Below are positions 9,681-42,526 of a DNA stretch of 64,000 nucleotides, piece by piece. The position numbers and the translations under genes were made by a program. This stretch comes from Reyranella soli. GTDB lineage: Bacteria; Pseudomonadota; Alphaproteobacteria; Reyranellales; Reyranellaceae. The DNA is taken from the NCBI RefSeq assembly GCF_007992495.1, contig NZ_BKAJ01000032.1, positions 124,001 through 188,000 on the forward strand, written 5' to 3'. Each line of letters starts with the position of its first letter. Within the stretch, counting starts at the first letter, position 1. The notes under the pieces were generated by a model, which did no database searches, had not been told where the DNA came from, and saw only the letters and a list, made by a program, of their open reading frames with translations.

Positions 9681-10085
9681 ATGATCGGACGCCTGAACCA
9701 CATCGCCATCGCCGTGCCCGACCTCGCCAAGGCGGCTGAGCTCTATCGCACGGTCATGGGCGCCAAGGTGAGCGCGCCCAAGGCGCAGCCGGCCCACGGC
9801 GTCACCGTGGTGTTCGTGGAACTGCCCAACACCAAGATCGAGCTCCTGCATCCACTCGGTGAGAAGTCGCCCATCGCCAACTTCCTGGCGCGCAACGCCG
9901 ATGGCGGCATTCACCACGTCTGCTACGAGGTCGAGGACATCTACGCCGCTCGTGACAAGCTGAAGGCCGGCGGCGCCCGCGTGCTGGGCGACGGCGAGCC
10001 CAAGATCGGCGCCCACGACAAGCCCGTGCTGTTCCTGCACCCCAAGGATTTCACGGGCACGCTGATCGAATTGGAGCAGGTCTGA
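9681..10085 (+). CDS. mce: Methylmalonyl-CoA epimerase
   Basis: A 134-residue vicinal-oxygen-chelate protein with two beta-alpha-beta-beta-beta modules. It interconverts the R and S forms of methylmalonyl-CoA in propionate catabolism. The metal ligands fit H9 (LNHIAIAVPDL), E51-type residues in ELPNTKIELLHPLG, H81 in GGIHHVCYEV, and the C-terminal glutamate in GTLIELEQV. It follows rnj by 17 bases with an AGGAGA ribosome site. The rnj-mce-DUF1467 order is common in this class. Confidence 0.93.
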   Translation: MIGRLNHIAIAVPDLAKAAELYRTVMGAKVSAPKAQPAHGVTVVFVELPNTKIELLHPLGEKSPIANFLARNADGGIHHVCYEVEDIYAARDKLKAGGARVLGDGEPKIGAHDKPVLFLHPKDFTGTLIELEQV

Positions 10086-10089
10086 GCGG

Positions 10090-10160
10090 TGTCATCCCGA
10101 GCGCAGCGAGGGACCTTTGATCGGCACCGCGACAGGTCCCTCGCTGCGCTCGGGATGACA
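10090..10160. repeat. 27-bp inverted repeat, intergenic hairpin
   Basis: Perfect arms at 10090-10116 and 10134-10160 (starting TGTCATCCCGAGCGCAGCG) surround a 17-base loop, right after the mce stop. Each arm also contains short self-complementary parts. There is no T-run after the stem. It may end or protect the mce transcript, but it looks like a dispersed REP-type element rather than a simple terminator. Confidence 0.9.
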
Positions 10161-10176
10161 GCGAGCAGGTAGCACC

Positions 10177-10419
10177 ATGTCTTGGGCCACCGGCATCATG
10201 GTCTACTTGGTGATCTGGTGGACGATCCTGTTCACCGTGCTGCCGCTCGGCGTGCGCAGGGTGGAAAATCCCGGTAAGGGGGAGGATCGGGGCGCCCCGG
10301 AGCGGCCACAGCTCCTCCGCAAGGCGATCATCACTTCGATCGTCGCCGCCGTTCTGTGGATCGGCTTCTATTTCCTCCACCAATCGGACGTCTTCAGCTT
10401 CCGCCGCATGGTGGAATGA
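10177..10419 (+). CDS. DUF1467 family small membrane protein
   Basis: An 80-residue protein with two predicted membrane helices, about residues 5-24 (GIMVYLVIWWTILFTVLPLG) and 50-67 (AIITSIVAAVLWIGFYFLH), joined by a polar loop with VENPGKGEDRGAP. This is the pattern of the DUF1467 family, found next to mce and proS in alphaproteobacteria. The function is unknown. A hairpin element separates it from mce, so co-transcription is likely but may be attenuated. Confidence 0.85.
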   Translation: MSWATGIMVYLVIWWTILFTVLPLGVRRVENPGKGEDRGAPERPQLLRKAIITSIVAAVLWIGFYFLHQSDVFSFRRMVE

Positions 10420-10460
10420 CCTTAATCCAATTTCTCAAGATCGTTGCCTAACCTATTGTC

Positions 10461-10490
10461 CCAAAAAGAAACAGCGGGCCCATGGCCCGC
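10461..10490 (-). terminator. Probable Rho-independent terminator for the reverse-strand permease transcript
   Basis: A 7-bp GC stem (GCGGGCC at 10474-10480, GGCCCGC at 10484-10490) with a three-base loop. Read on the reverse strand it is followed by a T-rich tract, complementary to 10461-10473 (ccaaaaagaaaca). That is the orientation expected for transcripts coming from the NCS2 permease or from an RNA in the 10491-10693 gap. Confidence 0.55.
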
Positions 10491-10693
10491 CGTTCCTCTA
10501 CCCCCGAAACTCGTCACAGGCAGCTTGCGCTGCTCTCCTCCCTAAAACTCGGGCTGTGCCCAAGACCCAGGCTACTTAGCCGGAAGCCAGCGTCTTGCCA
10601 AGACCTTTTCTTTCGATCACCCGCTTTCAATTAGAACAATTGTAAGCGCAATGATCGTTCGACGACAAACAAATGACCGCGCTTCGGATGTGA
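10491..10693 (-). other. Non-coding stretch before the terminator; possible structured RNA or 3' UTR
   Basis: No convincing reading frame. On the reverse strand it can form a GCAGC-GCAA-GCTGC hairpin (10521-10534 region) with a GNRA loop, enclosed by CCCGA/TCGGG pairing (about 10504-10552), and it ends at the terminator at 10461-10490. This could be the 3' UTR of the permease or a separate small RNA. It does not match 4.5S, RNase P or tmRNA core motifs that I know, and I cannot establish 6S. Confidence 0.3.
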
Positions 10694-11986
10694 TCATCCG
10701 ATGTACACGTATTTGATCACGAAGAGGACAGCGAGAATTCCGACTGCCGGATGGACATCGCGATAGCGTCCGGTCGCGACCTTGATTGCGGCGTACGAAA
10801 TGAATCCGAACGCGATGCCTTCGGCAATCGAGAAGGTGAAGGGCATCGTGATCGCCGTGACGACGGCGGGCGCCGCTTCGGTCACGTCGCCCCACGCGAC
10901 CTCGGTGAGGCTGCGGACCATCAGGCAGGCGACATAGAACAGCGCGGGAGCCGTGGCGTAGGCGGGGATCGAGCCCGCCAGCGGCGACAGGAACAACGCC
11001 AGGATGAAGAGGATGCCGACGGTCGCCGCCGTGAGGCCGGTGCGGCCGCCTTCGTTGATGCCCGAGGCGCTCTCGATATAGCTGGTCGTCGTCGAGGTGC
11101 CGACGGCGGCGCCGATCATGGCCGCACCGCTGTCGGCCATCAGGGCGCGATGCAGGCGCGGCACCGTGCCGTCCGGCTTCATGAAACCGCCACGATGGGC
11201 GAGCGCGATCAACGTGCCGGTGTTGTCGAACAAGTCGACGAACAGGAAGGCGAAGACCACGGTCACCAGCCCGACCTTCATTGCACCGGACAGATCCATC
11301 TGCAGCAGCACCGGGCTGAGCGACGGCGGCGTGTCGAAGATTCCGGCGAATTTCTGCTGGCCGGCGGCGATGGCGACGATGGTGACGACCAGGATGCCGA
11401 TGATCACGCCGCCCATGATCCGGCGGCGTTCCAGCGCGACGATCAGGAAGAAGCCGAGCGTCGCCATGACGACGGGGAAGCTCGTGAGCTTGCCGTGCGT
11501 CACCAAGGTCGCCGGATGGGCGACGACGATGCCGGAGTTCTTGAGCGCGATCAGCGCCAGGAACAGGCCGATACCGGCGGCGATCGCCATCTTGAGCGAC
11601 ATCGGGATGGCGTTGACGATCCATTCGCGAATCGGCAGCACGCTGATGATGAAGAAGATGACGCCCGAGATGAAGACGCAGCCCAGCGCCACCTGCCAGC
11701 TGTGGCCCATGCCGCCGACCACGCCGAAGGCGAAGTAGGCGTTGAGCCCCATGCCGGGCGCCAGCGCGATCGGGTAGTTGGCCAGGAAGGCCATCAGGAA
11801 GCAGCCGATGGCGGCGGCCACGCAGGTCGCGGCGAATACCGCGCCGAACGGCATCTTGGCCTCGGCCAGGATCGCCGGGTTGACGAAGATGATGTAGGCC
11901 ATCGTCAGGAAGGTCGTGATGCCGGCCACGATCTCGGTCCGGACGTTGGTCTTGTTCTCGCTGAGCTTGAAGACCTGCTCGAGCAT
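10694..11986 (-). CDS. NCS2 family purine permease (adenine/guanine/hypoxanthine type)
   Basis: A 430-residue membrane protein of the AzgA/PbuG-like branch of the NCS2 family, which imports purine bases by proton symport. Near the N-terminus is TFLTMAYIIFVNPAIL, followed by the NYPIALAPGMGLNAYFAF motif that forms the substrate site, DLFDNTGTLIALA near the middle, and ATVGILFILALFLSPLAGSIPAYATAPAL. About 12-14 membrane segments are expected. The ATG at 11984-11986 follows GGGGGAGAA on the reverse strand. It stands alone, divergent from proS. Exact substrate is not decided by sequence. Confidence 0.9.
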   Translation of the reverse strand: MLEQVFKLSENKTNVRTEIVAGITTFLTMAYIIFVNPAILAEAKMPFGAVFAATCVAAAIGCFLMAFLANYPIALAPGMGLNAYFAFGVVGGMGHSWQVALGCVFISGVIFFIISVLPIREWIVNAIPMSLKMAIAAGIGLFLALIALKNSGIVVAHPATLVTHGKLTSFPVVMATLGFFLIVALERRRIMGGVIIGILVVTIVAIAAGQQKFAGIFDTPPSLSPVLLQMDLSGAMKVGLVTVVFAFLFVDLFDNTGTLIALAHRGGFMKPDGTVPRLHRALMADSGAAMIGAAVGTSTTTSYIESASGINEGGRTGLTAATVGILFILALFLSPLAGSIPAYATAPALFYVACLMVRSLTEVAWGDVTEAAPAVVTAITMPFTFSIAEGIAFGFISYAAIKVATGRYRDVHPAVGILAVLFVIKYVYIG

Positions 11987-29966: not shown

Positions 29967-32279
29967 ATGCCCGGGGTGAGATTGATCGTTCGTTGGGCTG
30001 TTCTGGCCGTTGCGGCAATTCTGACGTTCGGCACGGCGGCGCATGCGCAGCGTGGGCCCGCCGCTGCGCCCGCTGGCGGCACGATCACGGGCGTGCAGAT
30101 CCAGGGCAATGTGCGTGCCGAGCCGGAGACCATCCGCTCCTACCTGCAGCTCAAGGAAGGGCAACCCTACGATCATGCGGCTGCCGACCGGTCGCTGAAG
30201 GCGCTGTTCGGCACCGGCCTTTTTTCCGACGTCACGATCGAGATGCAGGGCTCGACCCTGGTCGTGAAGGTCGTGGAAAACCCCATCATCAATCGCGTCG
30301 CCTTCGAAGGTAACCGCAAGATCGAGGACGACAAGCTGCGCGACGAGGTGCAGTCCAAGCCGCGCCAGGTCTTCACGCGCGCCCGTGTGCAGGCCGACGT
30401 CGAACGCATCCTGACGATCTATCGGCGCAGCGGCCGCTACAACGCCTCGGTCGAACCCAAGGTCATCAAGCTCGACCAGGGCCGCGTCGATCTCGTGTTC
30501 GAGATCAACGAAGGCGACGTCACCGGCGTGCAGCGCATCAGCTTCGTCGGCAACGAGGCGTTCAGCGACGGCACGCTGCGCGGCAAGATCAGGACCAGCG
30601 AGAGCGCCTGGTACCGCTTCCTGTCATCCGACGACCGCTACGATCCCGATCGCCTCAATCTCGATCGCGAGCTGCTGCGCAAGTTCTACCTCTCGGAGGG
30701 CTACGCCGACTTCCGCGTCGTGTCGGCGGTGGCCGAACTCGCGCCCAATCGCGAAGGCTTCTTCATCACCTTCACAATCAGCGAGGGCGACCGCTACAAG
30801 TTCGGCAAGGTCGAGGTGTCGACTCGCTTCCAGGGCCTCGATGTCGACGTGCTGCAGAGTTACCTGACCATGTCGGAAGGCGAGTGGTACGACGCCGACG
30901 AGGTCGAGAAGTCGGTGACGGCGCTGCAGGACATCGTTGGTTCGCTGGGCTACGCCTTCGTCGAGGTGCGCCCCAACATCCGGCGCAACAAGGACAATCT
31001 CACCGTCGACGTCACCTTCGAGATCCAGGAAGGTCCGCGCGTCTACGTCGAGCGCATCAACATCTCGGGCAACACGCGCACGCTGGACAAGGTGATCCGC
31101 CGCGAGTTCCGCCTGGCCGAGGGCGATGCCTTTTCGACCGCCAAGGTGCGGCGCAGCCAGCAGCGCCTGAAGAACCTCGGCTTCTTCGAGAAGGTCGACA
31201 TCTCCGCACAGCCCGGCTCGGCGCCGGACAAGACCAACCTCGAGGTCCAGGTGGTCGAGCAGAGCACCGGCGATATCTCGTTCGGCGCCGGCTTCTCGAC
31301 GACATCGGGCGTACTGGGCGACATCGCGATCAAGGAGCGCAACCTGCTCGGCAAGGGCCAGGAACTGCGGCTCGGCGTGTCGATCGGTACCTTGAGCACC
31401 TTGATCGACTTGAGCTTCACCGAGCCTTACTTCCTGGACCGCCCGATGGCGGCAGGCTTCGACATCTTCCGCACCTCCAACGACCGCCAGGCGGTGGCCT
31501 CGTACAGCGACCGCAGCATCGGCTTCGCGCTGCGCGCCGGCTGGGCCTATACCGAGCACTTGCGGCAGAACGTCCGCTACACGCTGCGCCAGACCGACAT
31601 CTACAACGTGCAGCCCTGGGCCTCGACCATCGTGCAGCTCAACGCCGGCACCTCGGTCGTCAACGAGGTCTCCGAGACCCTCGCCTGGGACACCCGCGAC
31701 ACCCGCCTCAACACGACCAAGGGCTTCCTGCTGCGCAACTCGATGGCAGTGGCGGGGCTGATCGGCACCGAGCAGTACTATCGAACGACGGCCGATGCGG
31801 TTTACTACCAGAGCATCTTCGAGGACGTCGTCGCCTCGATCGGCGGCTCGGCCGGCATGGTGCTGCCCTACAACGCCTCCTCGCTCAGGCTGAACAACCT
31901 GTTCTTCATTGGCGGCGATACGCTGCGCGGCTTCGCGGTCGGTGGCATCGGACCACGCGATTCGATCACTGCCGACGCGTTGGGCGGCACCTACTTCTAT
32001 ACCGCCACGACCGAGCTCAGCTTCCCGCTGGGCCTGCCCAAGGAAATCGGCATCTTCGGCAAGGCCTTCGTGGATGTCGGCTCGCTGTGGGGTCTGGGCG
32101 GGCCGGCGATCTACAGCAACACGGTGCTGACCAGCAATACCATGCGCATTTCGACCGGCGTCGGCGTCCAATGGATTTCGCCCTTTGGGCCGATCCGTAT
32201 AGACTACGCCTTCCCGCTGCAGCAGGACCCTTGGGACAAGACGGAGGCCATCCGCTTCAGCTTCGGCACGCGCTTCTGA
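29967..32279 (+). CDS. bamA: Outer membrane protein assembly factor BamA
   Basis: A 770-residue outer-membrane insertase. A signal peptide at about 1-27 ends in AAHAQ. Five POTRA repeats follow (about 38-420), each with the small GNxxxxD/ExIR-type strand, then a C-terminal 16-strand barrel starting near [11 protein letters not shown]. The lid motif LRGF is present ([13 protein letters not shown]), and the protein ends in an aromatic residue (FGTRF), the expected beta signal. The 126-base gap before it has no clear promoter. fabZ follows directly; the usual lpxD is missing. Confidence 0.96.
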
Positions 32280-32298
32280 TTGGGGGAATGGCGCCAGG

Positions 32299-32778
32299 AT
32301 GAACATGCAAACCGACAAGACCAGCATGGCGGGGACCACGACGGCGACCGTCGCCGACATCAAGCGGATCCTGCAGCTGATCCCGCACCGCTATCCCATG
32401 CTGATGGTCGACCGGGTAACCGAGATGCGGCTCGACAGCAGCGCCATCGGCATCAAGAACGTCAGCATCAACGAGCCCTTCTTCCAGGGCCACTTTCCGT
32501 CCGAGCCGGTGATGCCGGGCGTGCTGATCATCGAGGCCATGGCCCAGACCGCCGCCGTGCTGGTCATGTCGAGCCTCGGCCAGGAGGCCGACGGCAAGCT
32601 GGTCTATTTCATGTCGATCGACGACGTGCGCTTTCGCCGGCCGGTCGTGCCCGGCGACCGCCTGGAGCTGCATGTCGAGAAGATCCAGAGCCGGGCCAAT
32701 GTCTGGAGGTTCTCCGGCAAGGGGATTGTCGAAGGCAAGGTCTCGGCCGAGGCGACCTTCGCCGCCATGATCAGATAG
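32299..32778 (+). CDS. fabZ: 3-hydroxyacyl-[acyl-carrier-protein] dehydratase FabZ
   Basis: A 159-residue hotdog-fold dehydratase of type II fatty acid synthesis. The catalytic histidine is in [14 protein letters not shown] and the glutamate in [27 protein letters not shown] is the N-terminal motif. It lies 19 bases after bamA. In most relatives lpxD precedes it and lpxA follows; neither is here. The N-terminus is about 15 residues longer than usual, and later ATGs (32305, 32326) could serve. Confidence 0.95.
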
Positions 32779-32789
32779 AGGAGGGGACG

Positions 32790-33194
32790 ATGCCCGACGC
32801 CGTAACCAACGCCCGCATGCTGCACACGATGATCCGGGTGCACGATCTCGACAAGTCGATCGCCTTCTATACCGGCCCGATGGGCATGAAGCTTCTGCGC
32901 AAGCGCGACGTGCCCGAGGGCAAGTACACGCTGGCCTTCGTCGGCTACGGCGACGAGAGTGAACACTGTGCCGTCGAGCTCACCTACAACTATGGCCATG
33001 AGCCCTACGAGCTCGGGTCGGGCTTCGGCCATCTCGCGGTCGGCGTTCCCGACGTCGCCGGGATGTGCGCCGAGGTCGCCAAGGCCGGCGGCAAGGTCAC
33101 GCGCGCACCCGGGCCGGTGAAGTTCGGCACAACCGTGATCGCCTTCGTCGAGGATCCGGACGGTTACAAGATCGAGCTGATCGAGCGCAAGTAA
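32790..33194 (+). CDS. gloA: Lactoylglutathione lyase (glyoxalase I)
   Basis: A 134-residue glyoxalase I that turns the methylglyoxal-glutathione adduct into lactoylglutathione. Metal ligands fit H12 ([11 protein letters not shown]), E56-type ([10 protein letters not shown]), H76 (GFGHLAVGV) and E125-type ([11 protein letters not shown]). [19 protein letters not shown] is a family segment. Twelve bases after fabZ with a GAGGAGGGGAC site, so probably on the same transcript. This is where lpxA would normally be. Confidence 0.93.
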
Positions 33195-33203
33195 CCTCAT
33201 GCT

Positions 33204-33258
33204 CTTCCGGACTGCGCGCTCATGATCATGAGCGCGCAGGATGCGCGCGGTCCAGAAG
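33204..33258. repeat. Nested palindrome, partly degraded
   Basis: Outer arms CTTCCGGAC (33204-33212) and GGTCCAGAAG (33249-33258). The right half still contains an inner hairpin GCGCGC-aggat-GCGCGC, but the left half keeps only one GCGCGC, as if 11 bases were lost. The centre TCATGATCATGA is itself palindromic. Same family as the elements at 16749, 54784 and 59255. It lies between gloA and the next gene. Confidence 0.8.
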
Positions 33259-33291
33259 ACTCTGTTCACCAACCCATGTGATCCAGCCGTC

Positions 33292-33780
33292 ATGATGAAG
33301 CTTGCGCGATTCGTTTGCCTCTCGAGCCTTGTTGTCGGCCTGCTCGCCGGCGGAGATGGATCGGCAAACGCGGCGGATTGCGAAGCCACCATCGGCAAAT
33401 ACATGATCGGCCAGGCGCTGCTGGCGGCCAACTACGTCGCTGCCGCCGAGAAGGCCGGCATGAAGCCGGCCGAGATCAACGCCGCGCTGAAGGACATTGC
33501 CGCGAGCTCGCCGATCGAGGAGTTCTGGATCACCGATTCCAACGGCCGTGCCTATCTCACCAACACCGGCATCGATTTCACTTTCAATCGCGATCCGGCC
33601 ACGCAGCCGCAGGCTTCGGCCTTCTGGCGGCTGATCGCCGGCACGGCGACGGTGGTGGTGCAACCAGCGCAGAAGCGCGAGATCGACAACCGCGTCTTCA
33701 AGTATGTCGGCGTGGCCGGGGTCGACAAGCCGCGCATCGTCCAGGTCGGCGTCAGCGCCGATAACCTGGCCTGTCGCTAG
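33292..33780 (+). CDS. Small exported protein of unknown function
   Basis: A 162-residue protein with a signal peptide (MMKLARFVCLSSLVVGLLAGGDGSANA, cut before ADCEATIG). The mature part includes ITDSNGRAYLTNTGIDFTFNRDP, which reads like a small ligand-sensing or PAS/Cache-like domain, but I do not recognise the family. I reject the longer open frame from 33241 because its start lies inside a hairpin. The last about 40 codons are duplicated at 37109-37230 beyond the adjoining cassette. Confidence 0.7.
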   Translation: MMKLARFVCLSSLVVGLLAGGDGSANAADCEATIGKYMIGQALLAANYVAAAEKAGMKPAEINAALKDIAASSPIEEFWITDSNGRAYLTNTGIDFTFNRDPATQPQASAFWRLIAGTATVVVQPAQKREIDNRVFKYVGVAGVDKPRIVQVGVSADNLACR

Positions 33781-33781
33781 A

Positions 33782-34048
33782 TCAGGCGTCGTCCTCCCGA
33801 ATCGCCGGCATACGCGAGCCTTCCCGGGGCTTGATCGTGCAGCGCATGAGTGCGCCGGCAAGGCCGTCGCCATGACCCAGTGTCGCCGGCAGATCAGAAA
33901 TCTCGAACCGCCGCCACACCAAGGCGAAGCCGATCGATTTTCCATTGCTGGGCTCCTCTCCGAGCGAGAGGGCAGGCACGTCGGTGGGCATTCGCATGCC
34001 GGCCAGGCGGTACGGCTCTGGACGATGCCGGCGTGTACGCCGTAGCAT
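33782..34048 (-). CDS. Possible small hypothetical protein
   Basis: An 88-codon frame on the reverse strand, ATG at 34048, stop at 33782. The protein (starting MLRRTRRHRPEPYRLAGMRM) is mixed in character, with KSIGFALVWRRFEISDLPATLGHG in the middle, and codon choice looks coding. It has no recognised family, and its start is only about 18 bases from the divergent ACP start, which leaves little promoter room. It may be a remnant of a longer gene. Confidence 0.35.
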   Translation of the reverse strand: MLRRTRRHRPEPYRLAGMRMPTDVPALSLGEEPSNGKSIGFALVWRRFEISDLPATLGHGDGLAGALMRCTIKPREGSRMPAIREDDA

Positions 34049-34066
34049 CGTCGCAATCTTACATAC

Positions 34067-34345
34067 TTGGGGCCACCTTTGGAAAATCTGAATGAAGTAG
34101 TTCAGTGGGTGCGAGCCGAGCTGGCCCAAGTCCTCGATCGTCCGATCGAGGAAATCGATTCGAAGCAGAACTTCTCTCGACTCGGCGTGGACTCCGCTAC
34201 GGCCACGCACCTCATGATCGCATTGGAAGATGCGTTGCAGGTCGAGCTCGATCCTGATGTCGTTGACCGGCTGTTCACGATCGATTCACTTGCTGCCTAT
34301 GCCTTCAACCTGACCCGGGGCCAAGAGTGGAAGCCGCCGCAGTGA
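34067..34345 (+). CDS. Acyl carrier protein (stand-alone)
   Basis: A 92-residue phosphopantetheine carrier. The attachment motif is GVDSATATHLM, serine near residue 43; the helices before and after it (VVQWVRAELAQVLDRPIEEI and DVVDRLFTIDSLAAYAF) fit the four-helix ACP fold. It starts with TTG 34067 or TTG 34079. It overlaps the following ligase gene by 19 bases, so it is almost surely the acceptor for that enzyme's acyl-AMP product. Base composition is lower in GC than the flanking core genes. Confidence 0.85.
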   Translation: MGPPLENLNEVVQWVRAELAQVLDRPIEEIDSKQNFSRLGVDSATATHLMIALEDALQVELDPDVVDRLFTIDSLAAYAFNLTRGQEWKPPQ

Positions 34346-35979
34346 ATATCGGTCGACGGCTCCTTCATTTGGCCGAACGAACGCCGGACGCTCCAGCTTT
34401 CGAGTTCGCCACGCGCGAAACGAAGATCGACAACCGGCTGACCTTTGGTAGTTTGGCCGCAAGATCAACTGCGCTCGCCGCGCAGCTACAGGTATTGGAT
34501 GGCCGCGGCAAACGAGCCGCGCTCATCTTCTCTCCGGGTCTCGACTTCATGGTGGCATTGCTCGGCTGCATGCTTGCAGGGGTCATTGCCGTGCCCATGG
34601 CGCTACCGCGCCGACTTGCATCGCGCGATTCGGCGGATGCCATCATCCAGAACTGCACGCCGCATTTTGTTCTCACGACAAAAGCTCTGGTAACCCGTCT
34701 GAGCGCCGGCCTCGCCGACCGCCCACAGTGGCAAGGACGCACCTGGTTGGTGACCGATGCCGACGCCGAATACACCGCAATAGCAGCGAACTTCACGCCC
34801 ACGCCGATCGATATTGCCATTTTGCAATACACCTCCGGTTCCACTTCAGCGCCAAAGGGCGTGATGGTCAGTCACGCCAATCTTCTCAGCAATCTCTCCA
34901 TGATGCGGAAGTCCTTTGGTACATCGAGCGCTTCGACTTTCGCGTGCTGGGTTCCGTTGTTCCATGACATGGGATTGGTGGCGAATGCGTTGCATGCTTT
35001 GTTCGTCGGCGGTCGTTGCATTCTGATGGCTCCGTTGTCATTCATGCAGCGGCCGTTAGCCTGGCTGAAGGTGATCTCCGACCATCGGGTAGACGTCGCC
35101 GGGTGTCCCAATTTCGGCTATGACCATTGCGTCGACTACCTGCGGAATCGTCCCGTTGAGGGAATCGACCTGTCGTCCTGGCGAGTGGCGTTCAATGGCG
35201 CCGAGCCCATCCGGTCGGCGACTCTCGACCGGTTCGCGACCGCTTTCGCCCCATTCGGTTTCGACCGACGCGCGCTCTTTCCCTGCTACGGGATGGCCGA
35301 AGCCACTGTCATCATTTCAGGCAAGACCGATCGCAATGGTCCCGTACTCGAGTGCAGGGTCGGTAACAGGTCGCTCGTAAGCTGTGGGAGCGCCCTTGAC
35401 GGCGAGGAAGTCGCGGTGGTGCATCCCGACACCTGCTCCAGGCAGGCCGCCGGCATTGAGGGCGAAATCTGGGTGCGCGGCCCACACATCGCGGCAGGTT
35501 ATTGGGAGAATGCCGAGGCCACCGCCACGAACTTCAATGCCTGCGTCGAGGGTGAAGACGGGGGATGGTTGCGGACTGGAGATTTGGGATTCCTCGACGC
35601 GCGCGGCGAACTTTTCGTCACAGGGCGGTTGAAGGACCTGATTGTCGTGCGCGGACAGAACTATTACCCACAGGACATCGAGCTCTCCGTACAGGAGGGG
35701 CATGCCGCATTCGGGCAACAACTCGGTGCGGCTTTCGTCGCACCTGCGGGTCGCAACGAGTCGGCGGTCGTCGTGGTACAAGAGGCCGATCACCGCCTGC
35801 TCCGGCTGGCCTCGCCGGGCGAGCTTGAGGCGGCTGTCCGTGAAGCGGTCGCGCTGGATCATGGTCTTGCAGTGCATAAGGCCGTCATCGTGGCGCCCGG
35901 CGCCGTGCCGCGTACGACAAGCGGAAAGGTTCAGAGAGCCAAGGCGCGTGCGCTATGGTTGGCTGGCTTTTTTGGGTGA
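34327..35979 (+). CDS. Fatty-acyl-AMP ligase (FAAL-like adenylating enzyme)
   Basis: A 550-residue ANL-superfamily enzyme. The ATP-binding loop YTSGSTSAPKGVMVSH is near 165-180, FHDMGLV is the motif typical of fatty-acyl-AMP ligases, CYGMAEAT is near 320, and the hinge TGDLGFLDARGELFVTGRLKD and C-terminal TTSGKVQRAKAR carry the catalytic lysine. Such enzymes load fatty acids on an ACP, not on CoA. GTG start at 34327 is preceded by GGGG; GTG 34342 is an alternative. It overlaps the ACP gene and the next frame. Probable role: priming a lipid or lipopeptide-like product. Confidence 0.85.
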   Translation: MEAAAVNIGRRLLHLAERTPDAPAFEFATRETKIDNRLTFGSLAARSTALAAQLQVLDGRGKRAALIFSPGLDFMVALLGCMLAGVIAVPMALPRRLASRDSADAIIQNCTPHFVLTTKALVTRLSAGLADRPQWQGRTWLVTDADAEYTAIAANFTPTPIDIAILQYTSGSTSAPKGVMVSHANLLSNLSMMRKSFGTSSASTFACWVPLFHDMGLVANALHALFVGGRCILMAPLSFMQRPLAWLKVISDHRVDVAGCPNFGYDHCVDYLRNRPVEGIDLSSWRVAFNGAEPIRSATLDRFATAFAPFGFDRRALFPCYGMAEATVIISGKTDRNGPVLECRVGNRSLVSCGSALDGEEVAVVHPDTCSRQAAGIEGEIWVRGPHIAAGYWENAEATATNFNACVEGEDGGWLRTGDLGFLDARGELFVTGRLKDLIVVRGQNYYPQDIELSVQEGHAAFGQQLGAAFVAPAGRNESAVVVVQEADHRLLRLASPGELEAAVREAVALDHGLAVHKAVIVAPGAVPRTTSGKVQRAKARALWLAGFFG

Positions 35980-35990
35980 GATCGGATCGT

Positions 35991-37082
35991 ATGTCAGGTG
36001 CACCCCAGGTTTTCGAGATTTTTAGGAGTGCGCAGTTGGTGGCGCGTGCCGTGCTGGGCATGTCGGCTGATCGATGCGTTGTGACGTTTTCACCGTTCGA
36101 TGACAATCGCTCACTGGGTCGTCCCGGCTTCGAGCAGGGTTCCTTCCGCAAATCTCGAATAGATGCCATTCATGTAATCCCCGGAGGAAATCAAGGGTAT
36201 CAGTACCCGGAGCTTCCGCAATTGTGCTCGCAGATAGCGGAAGTGACGGCGACCTATGAGCACGTCGTTGCTTATGGGTCGAGCATGGGCGGATATGCAG
36301 CAATACGGTACGGAGGATGGGCTGGAGCCCATGTAGCCCTTGCCCTGTCACCTCAGTTCACACTTGATCCTTCGCAGCGGCCTTACGATGGACGTTGGCG
36401 GAAGCATGTCAAAGAGGTTCGGTTTCTGCACGAGCACGGGAACAATGCCGTCAGGCAAGCCATCGTATTGTATGATCCATCGGATGACTACGATTGTGCT
36501 CACGCAGGGCTTCTCCACACGATCACAAACGTCGTCGCTGTGCCTCTGCCCGGAAGCGGTCATCCAAGCACCAGCTTCCTCTCCGAACTGGATTTACTTC
36601 ATCGGATTGCTATCGAGGTCTGTTATGAGAGGTTCGTCCCCGAGCCTTTCCTCGCGGAAGTTAACCGTCGACGAGAAGAGTCGCCGCAATTTCATGTTGT
36701 GCGTGCATTGCGCGCGCGCAATCGCAAGGAGCGGTATCGCCTCATATCTCAGGCAGCAGCGCGCACGCCAACGCACTCGGGGACACTTCACGCTCTTGCT
36801 GAGATAGCCATTGAGGCAGGATTTCCGGAAGTAGCCCTGGACGCATTGGACAGAACTACAAGGGCGGAGCCGGGACGTACGCAGTATCTGCGCAGTCTGG
36901 CTCACGAGAAGGCCGGCCAGCTCGAGCAGGCCATCGAGATCATGGAAGAGCTGTGCCGGCCCAACACCGAATCGCCAGTCTATCGGTCGGCATTGTCGAG
37001 GCTCAAGCGACGAAGGACGCTTCAGGCGTGGGTACGCCAGCCCTGGCGATGGCTTGCGCGCCGCCGCCATGCCAATGACTAG
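35991..37082 (+). CDS. Alpha/beta-hydrolase-like protein with C-terminal helical repeats
   Basis: A 363-residue protein (375 if ATG 35955 is used, which overlaps the ligase gene). The first about 210 residues look like an alpha/beta hydrolase: nucleophile elbow YGSSMGGYAA with serine near 98, an acidic YDPSDDYD segment, and a late histidine in GSGHPST. The last about 130 residues are alpha-helical and TPR-like (TLHALAEIAIEAGFPEVALDAL, HEKAGQLEQAIEIMEEL). No signal peptide. It probably acts on, or releases, the acyl product of the ACP/ligase pair, but that is inference from position. GC is visibly lower than in the core genes. Confidence 0.65.
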   Translation: MSGAPQVFEIFRSAQLVARAVLGMSADRCVVTFSPFDDNRSLGRPGFEQGSFRKSRIDAIHVIPGGNQGYQYPELPQLCSQIAEVTATYEHVVAYGSSMGGYAAIRYGGWAGAHVALALSPQFTLDPSQRPYDGRWRKHVKEVRFLHEHGNNAVRQAIVLYDPSDDYDCAHAGLLHTITNVVAVPLPGSGHPSTSFLSELDLLHRIAIEVCYERFVPEPFLAEVNRRREESPQFHVVRALRARNRKERYRLISQAAARTPTHSGTLHALAEIAIEAGFPEVALDALDRTTRAEPGRTQYLRSLAHEKAGQLEQAIEIMEELCRPNTESPVYRSALSRLKRRRTLQAWVRQPWRWLARRRHAND

Positions 37083-37087
37083 ACTCG

Positions 37088-37230
37088 CCGTGATGATGAA
37101 GGGAGCCAGTGCAGCCGGCTCAGAAGCGCGAGATCGACAATCGCATCTTCAAGTATGTCGGCGTGGCCGGGGTCGACAAGCCGCGCATCGTCCAGGTCGG
37201 CGTCAGCGCCGACAACCGGGTCTGCAAGTG
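37088..37230 (+). pseudogene. Remnant copy of the small exported protein gene (3' end, internally deleted)
   Basis: From 37109 the sequence repeats the end of the gene at 33292-33780 (offset 3451): 67 bases are identical (33695-33761) and most others match. Just upstream, CCGTGATGATGAAG (37088-37101) resembles the start region CCGTCATGATGAAG of the complete gene, so this looks like a copy that lost its middle. It runs past the original stop position towards the fdxA end. Not expected to make a product. Confidence 0.8.
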
Positions 37231-37237
37231 GGCTGCT

Positions 37238-37570
37238 TCAGGGTTTGCCGACGCGAAAGGCCCCGACGAGGGGAGCGTCGAGCTTGCTGACGTGGTCAAG
37301 GGTAATGCCGCCGGGACTTCCCCAACCGGTGACCCCGGCTCCGAAGAATTCGACGTTGGCGGCAATGAAGGCCTGCTCCGCAGCCGGCACGTCGGCATCC
37401 TCATAGATCGCCTGCACCGGGCAGACCGAGACGCAGATGCCGCAATTGATGCACTCGTCGGGCTGGATGTACATCATGCGGCCGCCCTCGTAGATGCATT
37501 CTACGGGGCAGACTTTCTGGCAGATGCCGTCCTTCACGTCGATGCAGGTCGAGGTGACGACATAGGTCAT
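37238..37570 (-). CDS. fdxA: 7Fe ferredoxin (FdxA family)
   Basis: A 110-residue ferredoxin. By comparison with Azotobacter ferredoxin I, C9, C17 and C50 would hold a 3Fe-4S cluster and C21, C40, C43 and C46 a 4Fe-4S cluster ([39 protein letters not shown]). The acidic C-terminal helix region is normal. It is the last gene of a reverse-strand run and overlaps the stop of the upstream enoyl-CoA-hydratase-like gene by one base, which suggests it serves a redox enzyme of this cluster. Confidence 0.9.
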
Positions 37571-38346
37571 TAGCGGCCCTGCCACTGCGGCGGGCGCTTC
37601 TCGATGAACGCCTGCACGCCTTCATCCTGATCCGTCGACTGGAGGGCAGCGACCAGAGCGGGCAGGCGCAGCTGCTGTGCCTCTCGCGGCGAGAGGCCGG
37701 CGCCGCTGCGCACCATCTGCTTGATCGCCTTGACCGAGAGCGGCGCGCAGGCAAGGACGTCGGCAAGCCAACGCTCGACCGCTGCGTCGAGATCGGCCGG
37801 AGGCACGACTTCGTTGACCAGGCCGAGGCGCAGCGCCTCTGCCGCCGGCACGCGCCGGCCGGTCAGCAGCATGCCCATCGCCCAGACGTGCGGGATGCGC
37901 CGCGGCAGGATGGCGATTCCGCCGTCCAGCGCCAGCCGCCCAACGCGCGGTTCGGGCAAGCCGAAGCTGGCATTCTCGGCGGCGACGACGATATCGCAGC
38001 CCAGCACCATCTCCATGCCGCCGCCCAGGGCGTGGCCGTTGACGCGGGCGATCACCGGGACATCGAGGGTATCGCGCAACGCCAGGCCGCCGAAGCCGCC
38101 GGGCCGCGCCGCTGCCCAGTATTCCAGTCCGGTCTTGTTGCCGCTCTGCTTCATGTCGGCGCCGGTGCAGAAGGCGCGCTCGCCGGCGCCGGTGAGAACG
38201 ACGCAGCGCACCTGTTCGTCGCGTTCTATAGCCGACCAGATGTGCATCAGCTCGGCTTCGGACGCCTCGTCGATGGCGTTCATGCGGTCGGGGCGGTCGA
38301 TCGTGACGCGCGCGACGTGGTTCTCCACGGCAAAGCGGATGGTCAT
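37570..38346 (-). CDS. Enoyl-CoA hydratase/isomerase family protein
   Basis: A 258-residue crotonase-fold protein. Oxyanion-hole segments are [10 protein letters not shown] (about 58-67) and [16 protein letters not shown] (about 103-118). The first catalytic glutamate position looks kept (FGLPEPRVG), but where true hydratases have the second glutamate (AMEMVLTG in the rat enzyme) this protein has WAMGMLLTG, so simple hydration may not be its reaction. It overlaps the CoA-transferase gene by four bases and fdxA by one. Part of a CoA-thioester catabolic operon; substrate unknown. Confidence 0.88.
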
Positions 38347-39539
38347 GAAAGCACCTTGCCCTTGCGCAGCTCGGCGATGCGGTCGGGCGCGTAGCCCAGC
38401 TCGCCCAGGATCTCCGAACCATGCTCGCCGAGGCTTGGCGGCGCATGGCGCAGCCGGAACGCCGAGGCGTCCATGGTGATCGGCGAGGCGACCAGCTTCA
38501 GCGGCTCGTTGCGGCCGCTGCCGTTGGCGTCGAGCGACACGATCATGTTGTTCGCGGCGGTCTGATCCGACGACAGCGCCTCGCCCAGGGTCTGCACCGG
38601 CGCGCACAGGAGATCCTGCTCTTCGAGCCTGGCGAGCCAGTGTGCCGTCGTGTCGGTCGAGAGCTTGCTGCGGAACAGGCGGTGCAGTTCTGCCTTGTTC
38701 TCCACCTGCTTGGCGAAGGTGGCGTAGTTCTGGTCAGCCGACAGGTCGGGCAAGCCCAGCGCGCGGCAGATGTCCTGCAGCGGATTGGCCTTGAAGGCGC
38801 CGACGATCACCAGCGCGCCGTCGGTGGTCACGAACACGCCGGTTAGCGGGAAGGCGCCCCAGTTCAGCTCGCGCTTGCGCTGCAGCCACATCGCTGCTTC
38901 CTGCATCTGCATGGCGAGCATGGAATCGTAGAGCGACACCGAGAGGGCCTGCCCGACGCCGGTCTTCTCACGCTGCATCAGGGCGAGAAGAATGCCCTGC
39001 ACGAGATGCATTCCGGCCGAATAGTCCGCCAGCGCCGTGGCATAGACCGACGTCGGCAGACTTTGGTCGGGCTTGCGCGCCATCACGCCGCTCAGCGCCT
39101 GGGCCAGGATGTCCTGGCCGCCCTTGTGCGACAGCGGTCCGCTCTGGCCGAAGCCCGAACCGAAGGCGCAGATGATGCGTGGGTTTATCTTGGAGAGCGC
39201 CTCGTAGCCGAAGCCCATGCGGTCCATGACGCCGGCGCGGAAATTGTTCACCACCACGTCGGCGGTCTTCACCAGATCATAGACGACCGCCTTGCCGGCC
39301 TCGCCGCGCAGGTCGAGGGCGATCGAGCGCTTGTTGCGGTTGAGGCTTCTGAACACTGGATTGTTGAGCCCATCCGGATCGTCGGCCAGCGACGTCCTTG
39401 ACAGGTCGCCCGCGCCTGGCCGCTCGATCTTGACGACGTCGGCGCCGTAGTCGGCGAGCATTTGCGTGGCGCACGGTCCCATCATGACCTGCGTGAAATC
39501 GAGCACTTTTATGCCGGTGAGGGGCTGGGCGGCAGTCAT
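38343..39539 (-). CDS. CaiB/BaiF family CoA transferase
   Basis: A 398-residue family III CoA transferase, which moves CoA between carboxylic acids through an aspartyl intermediate. GIKVLDFTQVMMGPCATQMLADYGADVVKIE is the N-terminal signature, and the catalytic aspartate fits ALADYSAGMHLVQG near 170. FRSLNRNKRSIALDLR is also typical. The frame is open further upstream, but ATG 39539 gives the family start. It overlaps the upstream FAD oxidoreductase gene and the downstream hydratase-like gene by four bases each. Confidence 0.93.
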   Translation of the reverse strand: MTAAQPLTGIKVLDFTQVMMGPCATQMLADYGADVVKIERPGAGDLSRTSLADDPDGLNNPVFRSLNRNKRSIALDLRGEAGKAVVYDLVKTADVVVNNFRAGVMDRMGFGYEALSKINPRIICAFGSGFGQSGPLSHKGGQDILAQALSGVMARKPDQSLPTSVYATALADYSAGMHLVQGILLALMQREKTGVGQALSVSLYDSMLAMQMQEAAMWLQRKRELNWGAFPLTGVFVTTDGALVIVGAFKANPLQDICRALGLPDLSADQNYATFAKQVENKAELHRLFRSKLSTDTTAHWLARLEEQDLLCAPVQTLGEALSSDQTAANNMIVSLDANGSGRNEPLKLVASPITMDASAFRLRHAPPSLGEHGSEILGELGYAPDRIAELRKGKVLS

Positions 39540-40891
39540 TCGGCGGCCCTCAGGACGGTGGCGTTGGCTGCCGGTCGGTCTCCCGGATCGGCGCCGCGGT
39601 CGCGCAGGCGAGCCTGCAGCTTGCCGACGTCGACGCGGTCGAGCGCGACATCGCCTTCCAGCGCCAGCGCCGCCGCTTCGCCCGCGGCCTCGCCCATCGC
39701 CATGCAGGGCGGGATCTCGCGCGACATGCGCTGGGCCGACGAGGTCGCTGAATAATGCCGGCCGGCGACGATCAGGCCCTTGATCTCGCGCGGCAGCAGC
39801 GCGCGGTAGGGCGTGTAGTAGTCGCGGCCGCGCGCCACGCTGTCGGCGAAGTGCCGGCGTTCGGTCACGTCCTCCTTGGTCACGACATAGAGGCCCTCGA
39901 GCAGCCGGGTCTGGCGGATGCCGAGCTGGGGCGCCACGTCGACCACGAAGCAGTCGCGGAAGCCTGGCATCTTCTCGTGCAGATAATCGACCAGCTTGGC
40001 GATCCGCTTGCGGCCCTCGAAGTCGGCGCGCGTGAGGTCGTCGACCTTGAGGCCGTCGTAGTTGGCCATGTGCGGGCAGTTGCACCAGACGACGCCGGGC
40101 AGCGGCGTCTTCAGCCACCACTTGTCCCACGAGCCGCCGATCAGGCGCTTGGCCTCGCGGTCGATCGCCTTGAACGCCTCGGGCTCCTCGTATTCGAAGC
40201 GCTCGGCCGCCTCGACCTCGACGCCGCCCAGGCGAAACACGGTGGTGACGATGTAGGCGCCTTCGATGAACGGCGCGCCGGCCGAGGCGGCGACGTCGAG
40301 ATCGCCGGTGGCGTCGACGACGATCTTGCCGAGGATCGCCTGGCGGCCTTCCTTGCTCTCGCAGACGACGCCCTTGATCACGCCATCCTCGACGATGGCG
40401 CGGCTGAACCAGCTATGCAGGCGCAGATTGACCTTGGCCTCGGCGATCATGTCGTTGGACACGCGCTTGAAGCCGTCGGGATCGAAGGCCGCGGCATAGA
40501 CGATGGGCTGCGGCTTCAGGTGCGAGGTGAAATCGAACACGCCCCAACGCGACCATTTGTGCCACATAGCGGCATCGGACCGGCGATCGGCTTCAGGCGG
40601 TGTCACCGCGAGCCCAAGCCGCTCCAGCCGCGCGATGAGGTCGGCACAGAGGCCGCGCACGGCGATCTCCTGGCCATTGCACATGTCGTCGAGCACCAGG
40701 ACCATGCCGCCGGAGGCGAGGCCGCCAAGATACGGGTAGCGCTCGAGCAAGGTGACGCTGAGGCCGTTGCGCGCGCCGGCCAGCGCCGCGGCGATCCCGG
40801 CCGGGCCGCCGCCGACGACCACGAGATCGGATACCGCAGCGACGGGCGCTTGGCCGGCCGGCTCGCTGATGAACTGGGGGGTCGAGGTCAT
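39536..40891 (-). CDS. FAD-dependent oxidoreductase (FAD_oxidored family)
   Basis: A 451-residue flavoprotein. The Rossmann motif VVVGGGPAGIAAALAGARNG is at about 24-43 with the acidic end LLERYPYLGGLASGG. GKIVVDATGDLDVAA and the late LPREIKGLIVAGRHYSATSSAQ are typical of the FAD_oxidored group related to fumarate-reductase-like and glucose-inhibited-type proteins. No signal peptide. First gene of the CoA-transferase/hydratase/ferredoxin run, so the ferredoxin may be its partner. Substrate unknown. Confidence 0.85.
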   Translation of the reverse strand: MTSTPQFISEPAGQAPVAAVSDLVVVGGGPAGIAAALAGARNGLSVTLLERYPYLGGLASGGMVLVLDDMCNGQEIAVRGLCADLIARLERLGLAVTPPEADRRSDAAMWHKWSRWGVFDFTSHLKPQPIVYAAAFDPDGFKRVSNDMIAEAKVNLRLHSWFSRAIVEDGVIKGVVCESKEGRQAILGKIVVDATGDLDVAASAGAPFIEGAYIVTTVFRLGGVEVEAAERFEYEEPEAFKAIDREAKRLIGGSWDKWWLKTPLPGVVWCNCPHMANYDGLKVDDLTRADFEGRKRIAKLVDYLHEKMPGFRDCFVVDVAPQLGIRQTRLLEGLYVVTKEDVTERRHFADSVARGRDYYTPYRALLPREIKGLIVAGRHYSATSSAQRMSREIPPCMAMGEAAGEAAALALEGDVALDRVDVGKLQARLRDRGADPGDRPAANATVLRAAE

Positions 40892-40916
40892 GAGGCCTCC
40901 TTGGCTGATGAGGGGA

Positions 40917-41762
40917 TCAGGCGTTGTGCGCTACGTTCCAGCGCAGCAGGCGCTTCTCGGCGAGCGAGATGACGCCGAAGAACAGGGCCGAGAAAGTCGA
41001 GCCGACGACGATGGTGGCGTAGAGCAACGGCGAATCGAAATTGTAGGTCGACTGGATGATCAGCGCGCCGATGCCCTTGGTCGATCCGATCCACTCGCCG
41101 ACGATGGCGCCGATCACGGCGGTGGACGCGGCGATCTTCAGCGCGGAGAACAGGTAGGGGAGCGCGTTGGGCACGCGGATGCGCAGGAAGACCTCGCGCG
41201 GCGTGGCCGACAGGATGCGCATCAGCTCGAGCTGCTCGGCGCGCACGTCGCGCAGGCCGCGCGTCATGTTCACGAGCGTCGGGAAGAAGCAGATGATGGC
41301 GGCTATGGCGATCTTGGGTTCCATCCCATTGCCCAGCAGCAGCACCAGGATCGGCGCCTTGGCGACGACCGGGATGGTGTTGACCATCACGGCGATGGGG
41401 AACAGCGCCTCTTCCATGGTCTTGCGATAGACGAAGGCGGTGGCGAGCGTGATGGCGGCCAGGTTGCCCAGGATGAAGCCTGAGACGGCCTCGATCGCCG
41501 TCGGCAGCAGATTGGCCATCAGCATGTCGAAGCGATCGTAGAGCACTTTGGCCACCGCCACCGGCGAGGGCGCGATGAACGGTTGGATGTCGAAGATCTC
41601 GACCGCCTGCCACCACAGCAGCAGGAAGATGGCCACTGCGGCGACCGGCAGCAGGCGGCCGCGCCAAGCGAGATAGCGCTTGTGGGCGCGGAAGCGCGCC
41701 TGCGCCTCGGCGTCCTCGGCGAAGGCGGTGGCCATGGTGACCGGTTCGGCCTGGTTCGCCAT
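40917..41762 (-). CDS. ABC transporter permease (SsuC/TauC type)
   Basis: A 281-residue inner-membrane permease of the nitrate/sulfonate/taurine family. About six helices; the cytoplasmic EAA loop fits LRIRVPNALPYLFSALKIAAS near 190-210. It overlaps the ATPase gene by one base and is followed 25 bases later by the oxidoreductase gene. With the ATPase and binding protein it forms one importer, probably bringing in the substrate of the neighbouring enzymes. Confidence 0.92.
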   Translation of the reverse strand: MANQAEPVTMATAFAEDAEAQARFRAHKRYLAWRGRLLPVAAVAIFLLLWWQAVEIFDIQPFIAPSPVAVAKVLYDRFDMLMANLLPTAIEAVSGFILGNLAAITLATAFVYRKTMEEALFPIAVMVNTIPVVAKAPILVLLLGNGMEPKIAIAAIICFFPTLVNMTRGLRDVRAEQLELMRILSATPREVFLRIRVPNALPYLFSALKIAASTAVIGAIVGEWIGSTKGIGALIIQSTYNFDSPLLYATIVVGSTFSALFFGVISLAEKRLLRWNVAHNA

Positions 41763-42526
41763 CAGCAGGTCTCCAGCACGCGGCGCAAATGGCCGGCGAG
41801 GGCCACGAACTCCGGCGTCTCGCGCATCGCCAGCCGCCGCGGCGTCGGCAGGGTGACCGGCACCAGCTCTCGCACCCGGCCCGGCCGGGCCGCCAGCAGC
41901 AGCACCTTCTGGCCGAGGAAAGCCGCCTCGTAGATCGAATGGGTGACGAACACGATCGTGGTTCCGGTCGATTCCCAGACCTGCAGCAGTTCCTCGTTCA
42001 GGCGATCGCGGGTGATTTCGTCGAGGGCGCCAAACGGCTCGTCCATCAGCAGCAGCCGCGGGCCCGAGACCAGGGCGCGGGCGATTGCCACGCGCTGGCG
42101 CATGCCGCCCGACAGCTCATGCGGATAGGCCTGCTCCCAGCCGGTAAGGCCGACCAGGGTCAGCAGGTCCTGCGGCGAGCGCGCGCCGGGCAGGGCCTTG
42201 CCGCCGCCCACTTCGAGCGGCAGCGTGACGTTCTCGAGCACGGTGCGCCACGGCAGGAGAGCGGCGTCCTGGAAGACGAAGCCGATCTCGCGGTTCTGCC
42301 GCGCGGTCGCGGGCGCATCGTCCAGCACGGAGATCCGTCCGCCGGTGGGCTCGATCAGGTCGGCCATCACCCGCAGCAAGGTCGACTTGCCGCAACCCGA
42401 GGGGCCGAGCAGGGTGAGGAAGCTGCCGCGCGGGATCGTGAGATCGATGTTTTCCAGCGCTGTGACCGTGCCGCGCTCCGTGGTGAAGCGTACGGTGATC
42501 CGCTCGCACTGAACGGCGATGGCCAT
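41762..42526 (-). CDS. ABC transporter ATP-binding protein (SsuB/TauB type)
   Basis: A 254-residue ATPase. Walker A GPSGCGKST at 41-49, Q-loop in FVFQDAALLPWRTV, signature LSGGMRQR, Walker B LLLMDEPFGALD, and H-loop THS. It is coupled to the permease by a one-base overlap and follows the binding-protein gene by four bases. It belongs to the nitrate/sulfonate/taurine-type subfamily. Confidence 0.93.
   Translation of the reverse strand: MAIAVQCERITVRFTTERGTVTALENIDLTIPRGSFLTLLGPSGCGKSTLLRVMADLIEPTGGRISVLDDAPATARQNREIGFVFQDAALLPWRTVLENVTLPLEVGGGKALPGARSPQDLLTLVGLTGWEQAYPHELSGGMRQRVAIARALVSGPRLLLMDEPFGALDEITRDRLNEELLQVWESTGTTIVFVTHSIYEAAFLGQKVLLLAARPGRVRELVPVTLPTPRRLAMRETPEFVALAGHLRRVLETC

Follow-up and report, generated by a model that had tools for sequence, protein, structure and literature searches.

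A putative mobile cassette for acylation of a surface glycan in Reyranella soli, composed of an acyl carrier protein, a fatty-acyl-AMP ligase and a hydrolase-repeat protein

We analyzed a 64,000-nucleotide stretch of the Reyranella soli genome (assembly GCF_007992495.1, contig NZ_BKAJ01000032.1, positions 124,001 to 188,000; hereafter the window, whose own numbering is used throughout), in which positions 34067-37082 hold three co-directional genes for an acyl carrier protein (ACP), a ligase of the fatty-acyl-AMP ligase (FAAL) type and a protein that joins an alpha/beta-hydrolase domain to tetratricopeptide repeats (TPR). We give an even chance to the reading that this trio is a mobile glycan-acylation cassette, in which an acyl group would travel from fatty acid to acyl-AMP, acyl-ACP, an acyl-serine and finally an ester on a surface glycan. 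The ligase would convert a fatty acid to acyl-AMP and pass the acyl group to the adjacent ACP; the third protein would accept it from acyl-ACP on Ser98, aided by His191, Asp162 and an extra Gln122, and would then transfer it to a hydroxyl group on a surface glycan whose biosynthetic loci lie elsewhere in the genome, the TPR tail perhaps (this is a guess) docking the ACP or the glycan machinery. Transfer from acyl-ACP to glycan is proposed because of the fold and active site of the third protein and the genomic linkage seen in relatives. That the ACP is the partner of the ligase, as well as the donor, the chain length and the glycan acceptor, we infer. The three genes are as follows.

34067-34345, plus strand: stand-alone ACP, 92 amino acids (PF00550, 5.9e-15), with a GVDS attachment site and an uncertain TTG start
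34327-35979, plus strand: FAAL-type ligase, 550 amino acids (PF00501, 5.4e-64; PF23024, the DIP2-like C-terminal domain, 8.9e-9)
35991-37082, plus strand: third protein, a predicted glycan O-acyltransferase, 363 amino acids, with an alpha/beta-hydrolase domain (about residues 1-215) and a TPR tail (TPR_19, 1.7e-5)

An earlier note on this DNA had described the genes as overlapping or nearly touching and as low in GC, and both points hold. The ACP and ligase open reading frames (ORFs) overlap by 19 bases, and the third gene follows the ligase after an 11-base gap if it starts, as is probable, at the ATG at 35991 rather than at 35955, since its closest relative (in genome G009) begins at the same residue. 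The GC content of the insert that carries the trio is 0.599, against a mean of 0.666 (standard deviation 0.016; z = -4.2) in 271 overlapping, equally long pieces from outside the insert, and GC at third codon positions is 0.59-0.69 in the cassette versus 0.82-0.93 in six native neighbour genes. Single-sequence queries (E 1e-3) against the 367 window ORFs of at least 80 amino acids gave no match for polyketide synthase (PKS) ketosynthase or acyltransferase domains (ketosynthase-acyltransferase-dehydratase, KS-AT-DH, query), KpsE, polysaccharide export, GT4 or WcbI; modules of non-ribosomal peptide synthetases (NRPS) had no query of their own. A loading module for a local PKS is thus rejected, and the note was right that the FAAL has a dedicated ACP but no assembly line in its vicinity.

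The ligase groups with FAALs. Its top chain in the PDB, labelled a polyketide synthase, scores 3.7e-125, and FadD23, FadD32 and 3pbk, all named AMP or adenylate ligases, score 1e-71 to 1e-81, whereas chains named 4-coumarate-CoA ligase start at 1e-27. The best single-enzyme NCBIfam models are FAALs, and the other best matches are synthetases with a FAAL-like domain. In a maximum-likelihood tree of 56 ligases the window row falls in a clade of nine members (support 100/99), every one of which has an adjacent ACP gene; E. coli FadD, the sole acyl-CoA synthetase of known function in the tree, lies outside this clade on a long branch. The residues that block the coenzyme A (CoA) pocket of EcFAAL, together with the FAAL-specific helix and pocket proline, are W224, P226, M231, F279 and T252-P259 (PMC8460268). 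They are matched with identical spacing by W208, P210, M215, F263 and R242-P243 of the ligase, and FadD retains just the proline equivalent to P226; the methionine is leucine in three of the nine clade members. The ligases of the two Reyranella trios have 53 residues in the spacer that holds the FAAL-specific insertion, compared with 69 in the seven other clade members and 43 in FadD (both anchors were obtained in 31 of the 56 rows), and two further FAAL-like genes also have short spacers of 54 and 55 residues. Judged by this spacing, the insertion appears shortened, not absent; a structure model of the FAAL from three sequences (predicted local distance difference test, pLDDT, 54.9) was too poor for reading it. 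An acyl-CoA synthetase is therefore rejected by PDB scores, by a tree position apart from FadD, as the note had expected, and by the CoA-excluding residues. Because of its family and its pairing with an ACP gene, the ligase would make acyl-AMP and load the neighbouring ACP. Caulobacter-type sphingolipid genes also include a pair of ACP and acyl-ACP synthetase, there linked to serine palmitoyltransferase and ceramide genes.

The third protein has a confident AlphaFold model (pLDDT 95.5, pTM, the predicted template modelling score, 0.89), on which the following positions lie.

36282-36284, plus strand: codon of Ser98, the predicted nucleophile (YGSSMGGY)
36354-36356, plus strand: codon of Gln122, at Ser+24 like Gln138 of CsaC
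36474-36476, plus strand: codon of Asp162, predicted triad
36561-36563, plus strand: codon of His191, predicted triad
36639-37037, plus strand: TPR-like helical tail, model helices 217-349

When the 1000 best Foldseek chains were re-ranked with VIA-align (50 entries shown), the top entry is Gap2 of the Gap123 complex, of the Gap2/Asp2 type (6oyc_B; Z 15.9, root-mean-square deviation 3.4, 203 residues aligned), followed by four entries of CsaC, a capsule O-acetyltransferase (Z 15.6-14.5, deviation 3.2-3.4, 191-194 aligned), and then by esterases and TPR chains at Z of at most 13.4. The note's proposal of a free fatty-acyl group is at most partly supported, the nearest folds being glycan O-acetyltransferases. 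In an alignment of 60 family members, Ser98, Asp162 and His191 are present in all 60 and Gln122 in 58; the serine motif YGxSMGGY is nearly invariant, which weighs little because it partly served as a search pattern. Two further sets were assembled with profile or tblastn searches, and among their scored members 7 of 10 and 12 of 12 likewise carry glutamine at exactly Ser+24. In these sets, hits with the same sequence around the serine entered the counts a single time, hits without the required nucleophile motif (10 in the class set, 2 in the other) were left unscored, and overlap with the 60 members (e.g., genes of loci L041 and L199-L201) makes the sets not independent. TPR_19 matches 40 of the 60 members and no Pfam or NCBIfam entry that matches them names a hydrolase-TPR family, so the note's view of an alpha/beta-hydrolase fused to TPR in an unnamed family stands. 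The GDSL lipase model is also matched by 4 of the 60. Membership of XcbB/CpsF (NF033892) is rejected at 14.3 bits for the window protein versus a cut-off of 125; four of the 60 members match this model weakly (best 9.3e-4).

The link of these proteins to the cell envelope, which the note had suggested, is borne out by relatives that lie in polysaccharide-export loci. We surveyed 199 genomes from the family of Bosea sp. Leaf344, calling relatives of the third protein at E 1e-15. Each of the seven best ligase matches lies beside an ACP gene. A relative of the third protein occurs in 17 of the 199 genomes, that is, in 4 of the 7 with a clade ligase versus 13 of the 192 others (P = 0.001, Fisher's exact test). 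The four copies lie next to the ligase (G409), about 11 kb away (G557), 13 kb away (G519) and 20 kb away (G585), and the joint chance of four such proximities is about 2e-8 under a simple model that ignores relatedness. Their surroundings include KpsT- and KpsE-like genes, an ABC-2 permease, Poly_export, glycosyltransferases and a pyruvyl transferase, and the G519 locus also holds a KS-AT-DH PKS. Moreover, WcbI (PF18588) adjoins the ligase-ACP pair at five of the seven sites (Leaf344, G557, G519, G435 and G418; neighbours at the other two were scanned in part). The G459 site has a fatty-acid desaturase and another ACP on its upstream side. Beyond this sample, S. meliloti GR4 carries a relative of the third protein at a distance of about 6 kb from genes for an ABC-2 permease and a Capsule_synth protein, and in Reyranella massiliensis another has genes for an ABC transporter, polysaccharide export and a PKS close by. 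Glycan acceptors are plausible in the genome of the window (G000) because it has seven polysaccharide-export matches. No WcbI match was found in 27 genomes (G000 and 26 relatives); the controls of that search were silent too, so absence is not established.

Proteins of 578-593 amino acids beside FAAL-ACP pairs (L179, 6168-7946; L180, 9757-11529; L095, 3851-5626; L181, 6996-8729, in coordinates of each locus) carry a C-terminal WcbI domain, and their N-terminal half has no Pfam match.

Of the 25 genomes in the genus, many being drafts, 4 have the third gene (G000, G009, G021 and G024), which lies beside a matching ligase and ACP in two (G000 and G009). The search for the same trio elsewhere, which the note had proposed, thus found it in G009, at 75% identity to the window for the ligase and 55% for the third protein, and also in Bosea sp. 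Leaf344, where the ligase gene comes first, then the ACP gene and then the gene of the third protein. When GTDB contigs were scanned with a single protein, no relatives of the third protein came up, whereas a four-row alignment used in the same way retrieved 102. We kept 80 of these, which by their record titles are mostly from Alphaproteobacteria. Within the fetched flanks (up to 8 kb), a ligase and ACP were present in 3 of 81 loci (the window, G009 and Leaf344). One hydrolase-TPR gene (L032 in G024, 9696-10838), with neither ligase nor ACP, stands straight after an ORF that by eye resembles secA, and at least two hydrolase-TPR profile matches occur in a single locus in L098, L119, L113, L116 and L123.

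Several results weigh against glycan acylation by the trio. The remaining 78 of the 81 loci have no ligase-ACP pair inside these flanks, two of them (L086 and L087) having it 11-20 kb away; the third gene, whose conservation with the other two the note had set as a test, is linked to the pair in six genomes. Among the seven Bosea-side genomes, three (G435, G418 and G459) have the pair and no detected third protein, the contig ending shortly past the ACP in G435 and just past the ligase in G459; the seven are also related, so that the Fisher value overstates their independence. The window has no detected glycan gene. A Pfam count of 114 neighbours of the third protein (from L031-L033 and L064-L099, hand-thinned from 137, with one gene added) includes few glycan genes (6 Glycos_transf_1, 3 Poly_export and 3 ABC_tran), and therefore most family members lie outside obvious glycan loci. 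The top match by Foldseek's own ranking is a ferulic acid (feruloyl) esterase at 1.1e-5, with CsaC second, and a sequence profile of the N-terminal domain gives E 0.34 for CsaC and 0.89 for Gap2, an esterase being best in the PDB at 0.023. CsaC and Asp2 are, finally, described as acetyl, not fatty-acyl, enzymes. Acyl-ACP as donor is the weakest step of the scheme, because the described relatives use acetyl and most family members have no ligase-ACP neighbour.

The alternative that survives best is that a lipid-building enzyme (a PKS or an acyltransferase) encoded at another locus receives acyl groups from the ligase and ACP and makes a lipid anchor or an envelope lipid, and that the third protein is an independent acetyl-CoA glycan O-acetyltransferase travelling along. 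PKS genes close to the pair in G519 and close to the third protein in R. massiliensis agree with it, as do the usual occurrence of the third protein without the pair and the use of acetyl groups by described relatives of its fold. Against such separate functions, the window shows no PKS, the 8-kb contig of G009 has no PKS-sized ORF (it begins just before the ACP, so that upstream DNA is unseen), and the trio is kept together in two diverged members of the genus; we regard this alternative as rather unlikely. The third protein could instead be an acyl-ACP thioesterase or esterase that frees (perhaps modified) fatty acids or strips acyl groups from glycans, as the esterase matches given above by Foldseek and by profile would suggest. 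The glutamine at Ser+24 is, however, a trait of CsaC, Gap2 and CsaC stand 1.1-2.5 Z units above the next rows, and the setting of the relatives is one of glycan building, which leaves an esterase with a small share of the probability.

The glycan-acylation reading supposes a mobile cassette, and the DNA around the trio records its arrival, as follows.

33241-33780, plus strand: host gene, 179 amino acids, without Pfam match, with the insertion at its 3' end; in G004, a relative with the empty site, it continues directly to the ferredoxin gene
33658-33773, plus strand: left copy of a 116-bp direct repeat, being the end of the host gene (from repeat comparison)
33774-34066, no strand assigned: left arm of the insert, of which 33780-33932 matches DNA inside a SRAP (PF02586) gene of G013
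37109-37224, plus strand: right copy of the repeat, continuous with native downstream DNA and a host-gene fragment without the 5' part

The direct repeats bracket the block at 93% identity. In G004, window segments 33370-33773 and 37109-39994 map to overlapping, contiguous DNA with a single repeat copy; G013 is a second empty-site relative of this kind, but has a partial host gene that contains a stop. Over the 116 positions there are 8 mismatches between the left copy and G004, 11 between the right copy and G004 and 8 between left and right. Because of the flanking repeat and the empty sites in two relatives, we conclude that a 3.45-kb insertion entered the end of the host gene, duplicated that end and left the gene open. 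Beyond the trio, the insert consists of a 293-base left arm and a few bases at the right, and therefore has no space for an integrase gene. The SRAP-like piece of the left arm is on the minus strand, truncated and itself without a Pfam match; matches to the arm were tallied in 8 of 41 genomes, and the matching DNA sits elsewhere in other genus genomes. No tRNA lies within 30000-42000, so a tRNA-targeted element is rejected. That the trio is passenger DNA without present function, brought in by an odd recombination, would fit the truncated SRAP-like left end, the low GC and the presence of the trio in just 2 of the 25 genomes of the genus (drafts in many cases), but is highly improbable in view of three open frames with predicted catalytic residues and the same trio in G009 at the identities given above.

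The earlier note had placed the cassette at a site expected for lipid A genes. None of 17 genomes of the genus (G000-G016, some of which are incomplete drafts) gave a match to LpxC (PF03331), nor did G025, the one other genome of the order; LpxC was found in eight of nine other members of the class, and 4 of 14 control genomes matched, including E. coli and Caulobacter. The empty-site relatives G004 and G013 keep the window gene order of 32001-40000, with no space for a lipid A gene. The lineage thus probably lacks lipid A, a feature that belongs to the lineage and not to the insertion, so that the placement is not specific to the cassette and a replacement of lipid A genes by the cassette is rejected. 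A search of the open-access literature found nothing on Reyranella without lipid A.

If glycan acylation is correct, FAAL chemistry would gain a new outlet, with a FAAL-ACP pair supplying a glycan acyltransferase, and a surface sugar would be made greasy in a new way; an unnamed alphaproteobacterial hydrolase-TPR family would acquire a function and the CsaC-type glutamine a testable role. Bacterial FAALs are described as always accompanied by PKS or PKS/NRPS genes (PMC8460268). A term search of a 2025 FAAL review (PMC11837247) gave no occurrence of "capsul" or "polysaccharide", and an open-access literature search found nothing on FAAL together with capsule. We offer as a tentative wider picture, one that is somewhat unlikely as a whole, that a genus of Alphaproteobacteria without lipid A acquires transferable cassettes by which fatty acids carried on ACP are attached to surface glycans, yielding amphiphilic surface sugars, with an ACP-dependent branch of CsaC/Asp2 and a WcbI-type alternative for the last step in other genera.

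Among known systems, CsaC of Neisseria meningitidis serogroup A resembles the third protein in its alpha/beta-hydrolase fold, its Ser-Asp-His triad and its glutamine at Ser+24 (PMC7501274). It acts on capsular polysaccharide with acetyl-CoA as donor, and its glutamine extension, Q138, lies 24 residues past S114 and is called conserved in uncharacterised proteins by its authors (PMC7501274). Unlike the third protein, the CsaC structures (241-246 residues) have no room for a TPR tail, and sequence similarity between the two is not significant here. We know of no ligase or ACP partner for CsaC. Asp2/Gap2 of serine-rich adhesin export, the nearest fold, shares the Ser-Asp-His triad (PMC5578698; 6oyc) and O-acylates sugars during export, but adds acetyl and works in a Gram-positive accessory Sec system (PMC5578698). 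JamA/JamB is, as in the cassette, a stand-alone FAAL next to its cognate ACP (PMC11837247), but its acyl-ACP feeds a PKS/NRPS line, whereas no such line was found for the cassette, and in relatives the neighbours of the pair include glycan enzymes. WcbI, a family of polysaccharide biosynthesis, is unlike the third protein but adjoins ligase-ACP pairs of the same clade, and by this analogy it is a possible functional stand-in for the third protein.

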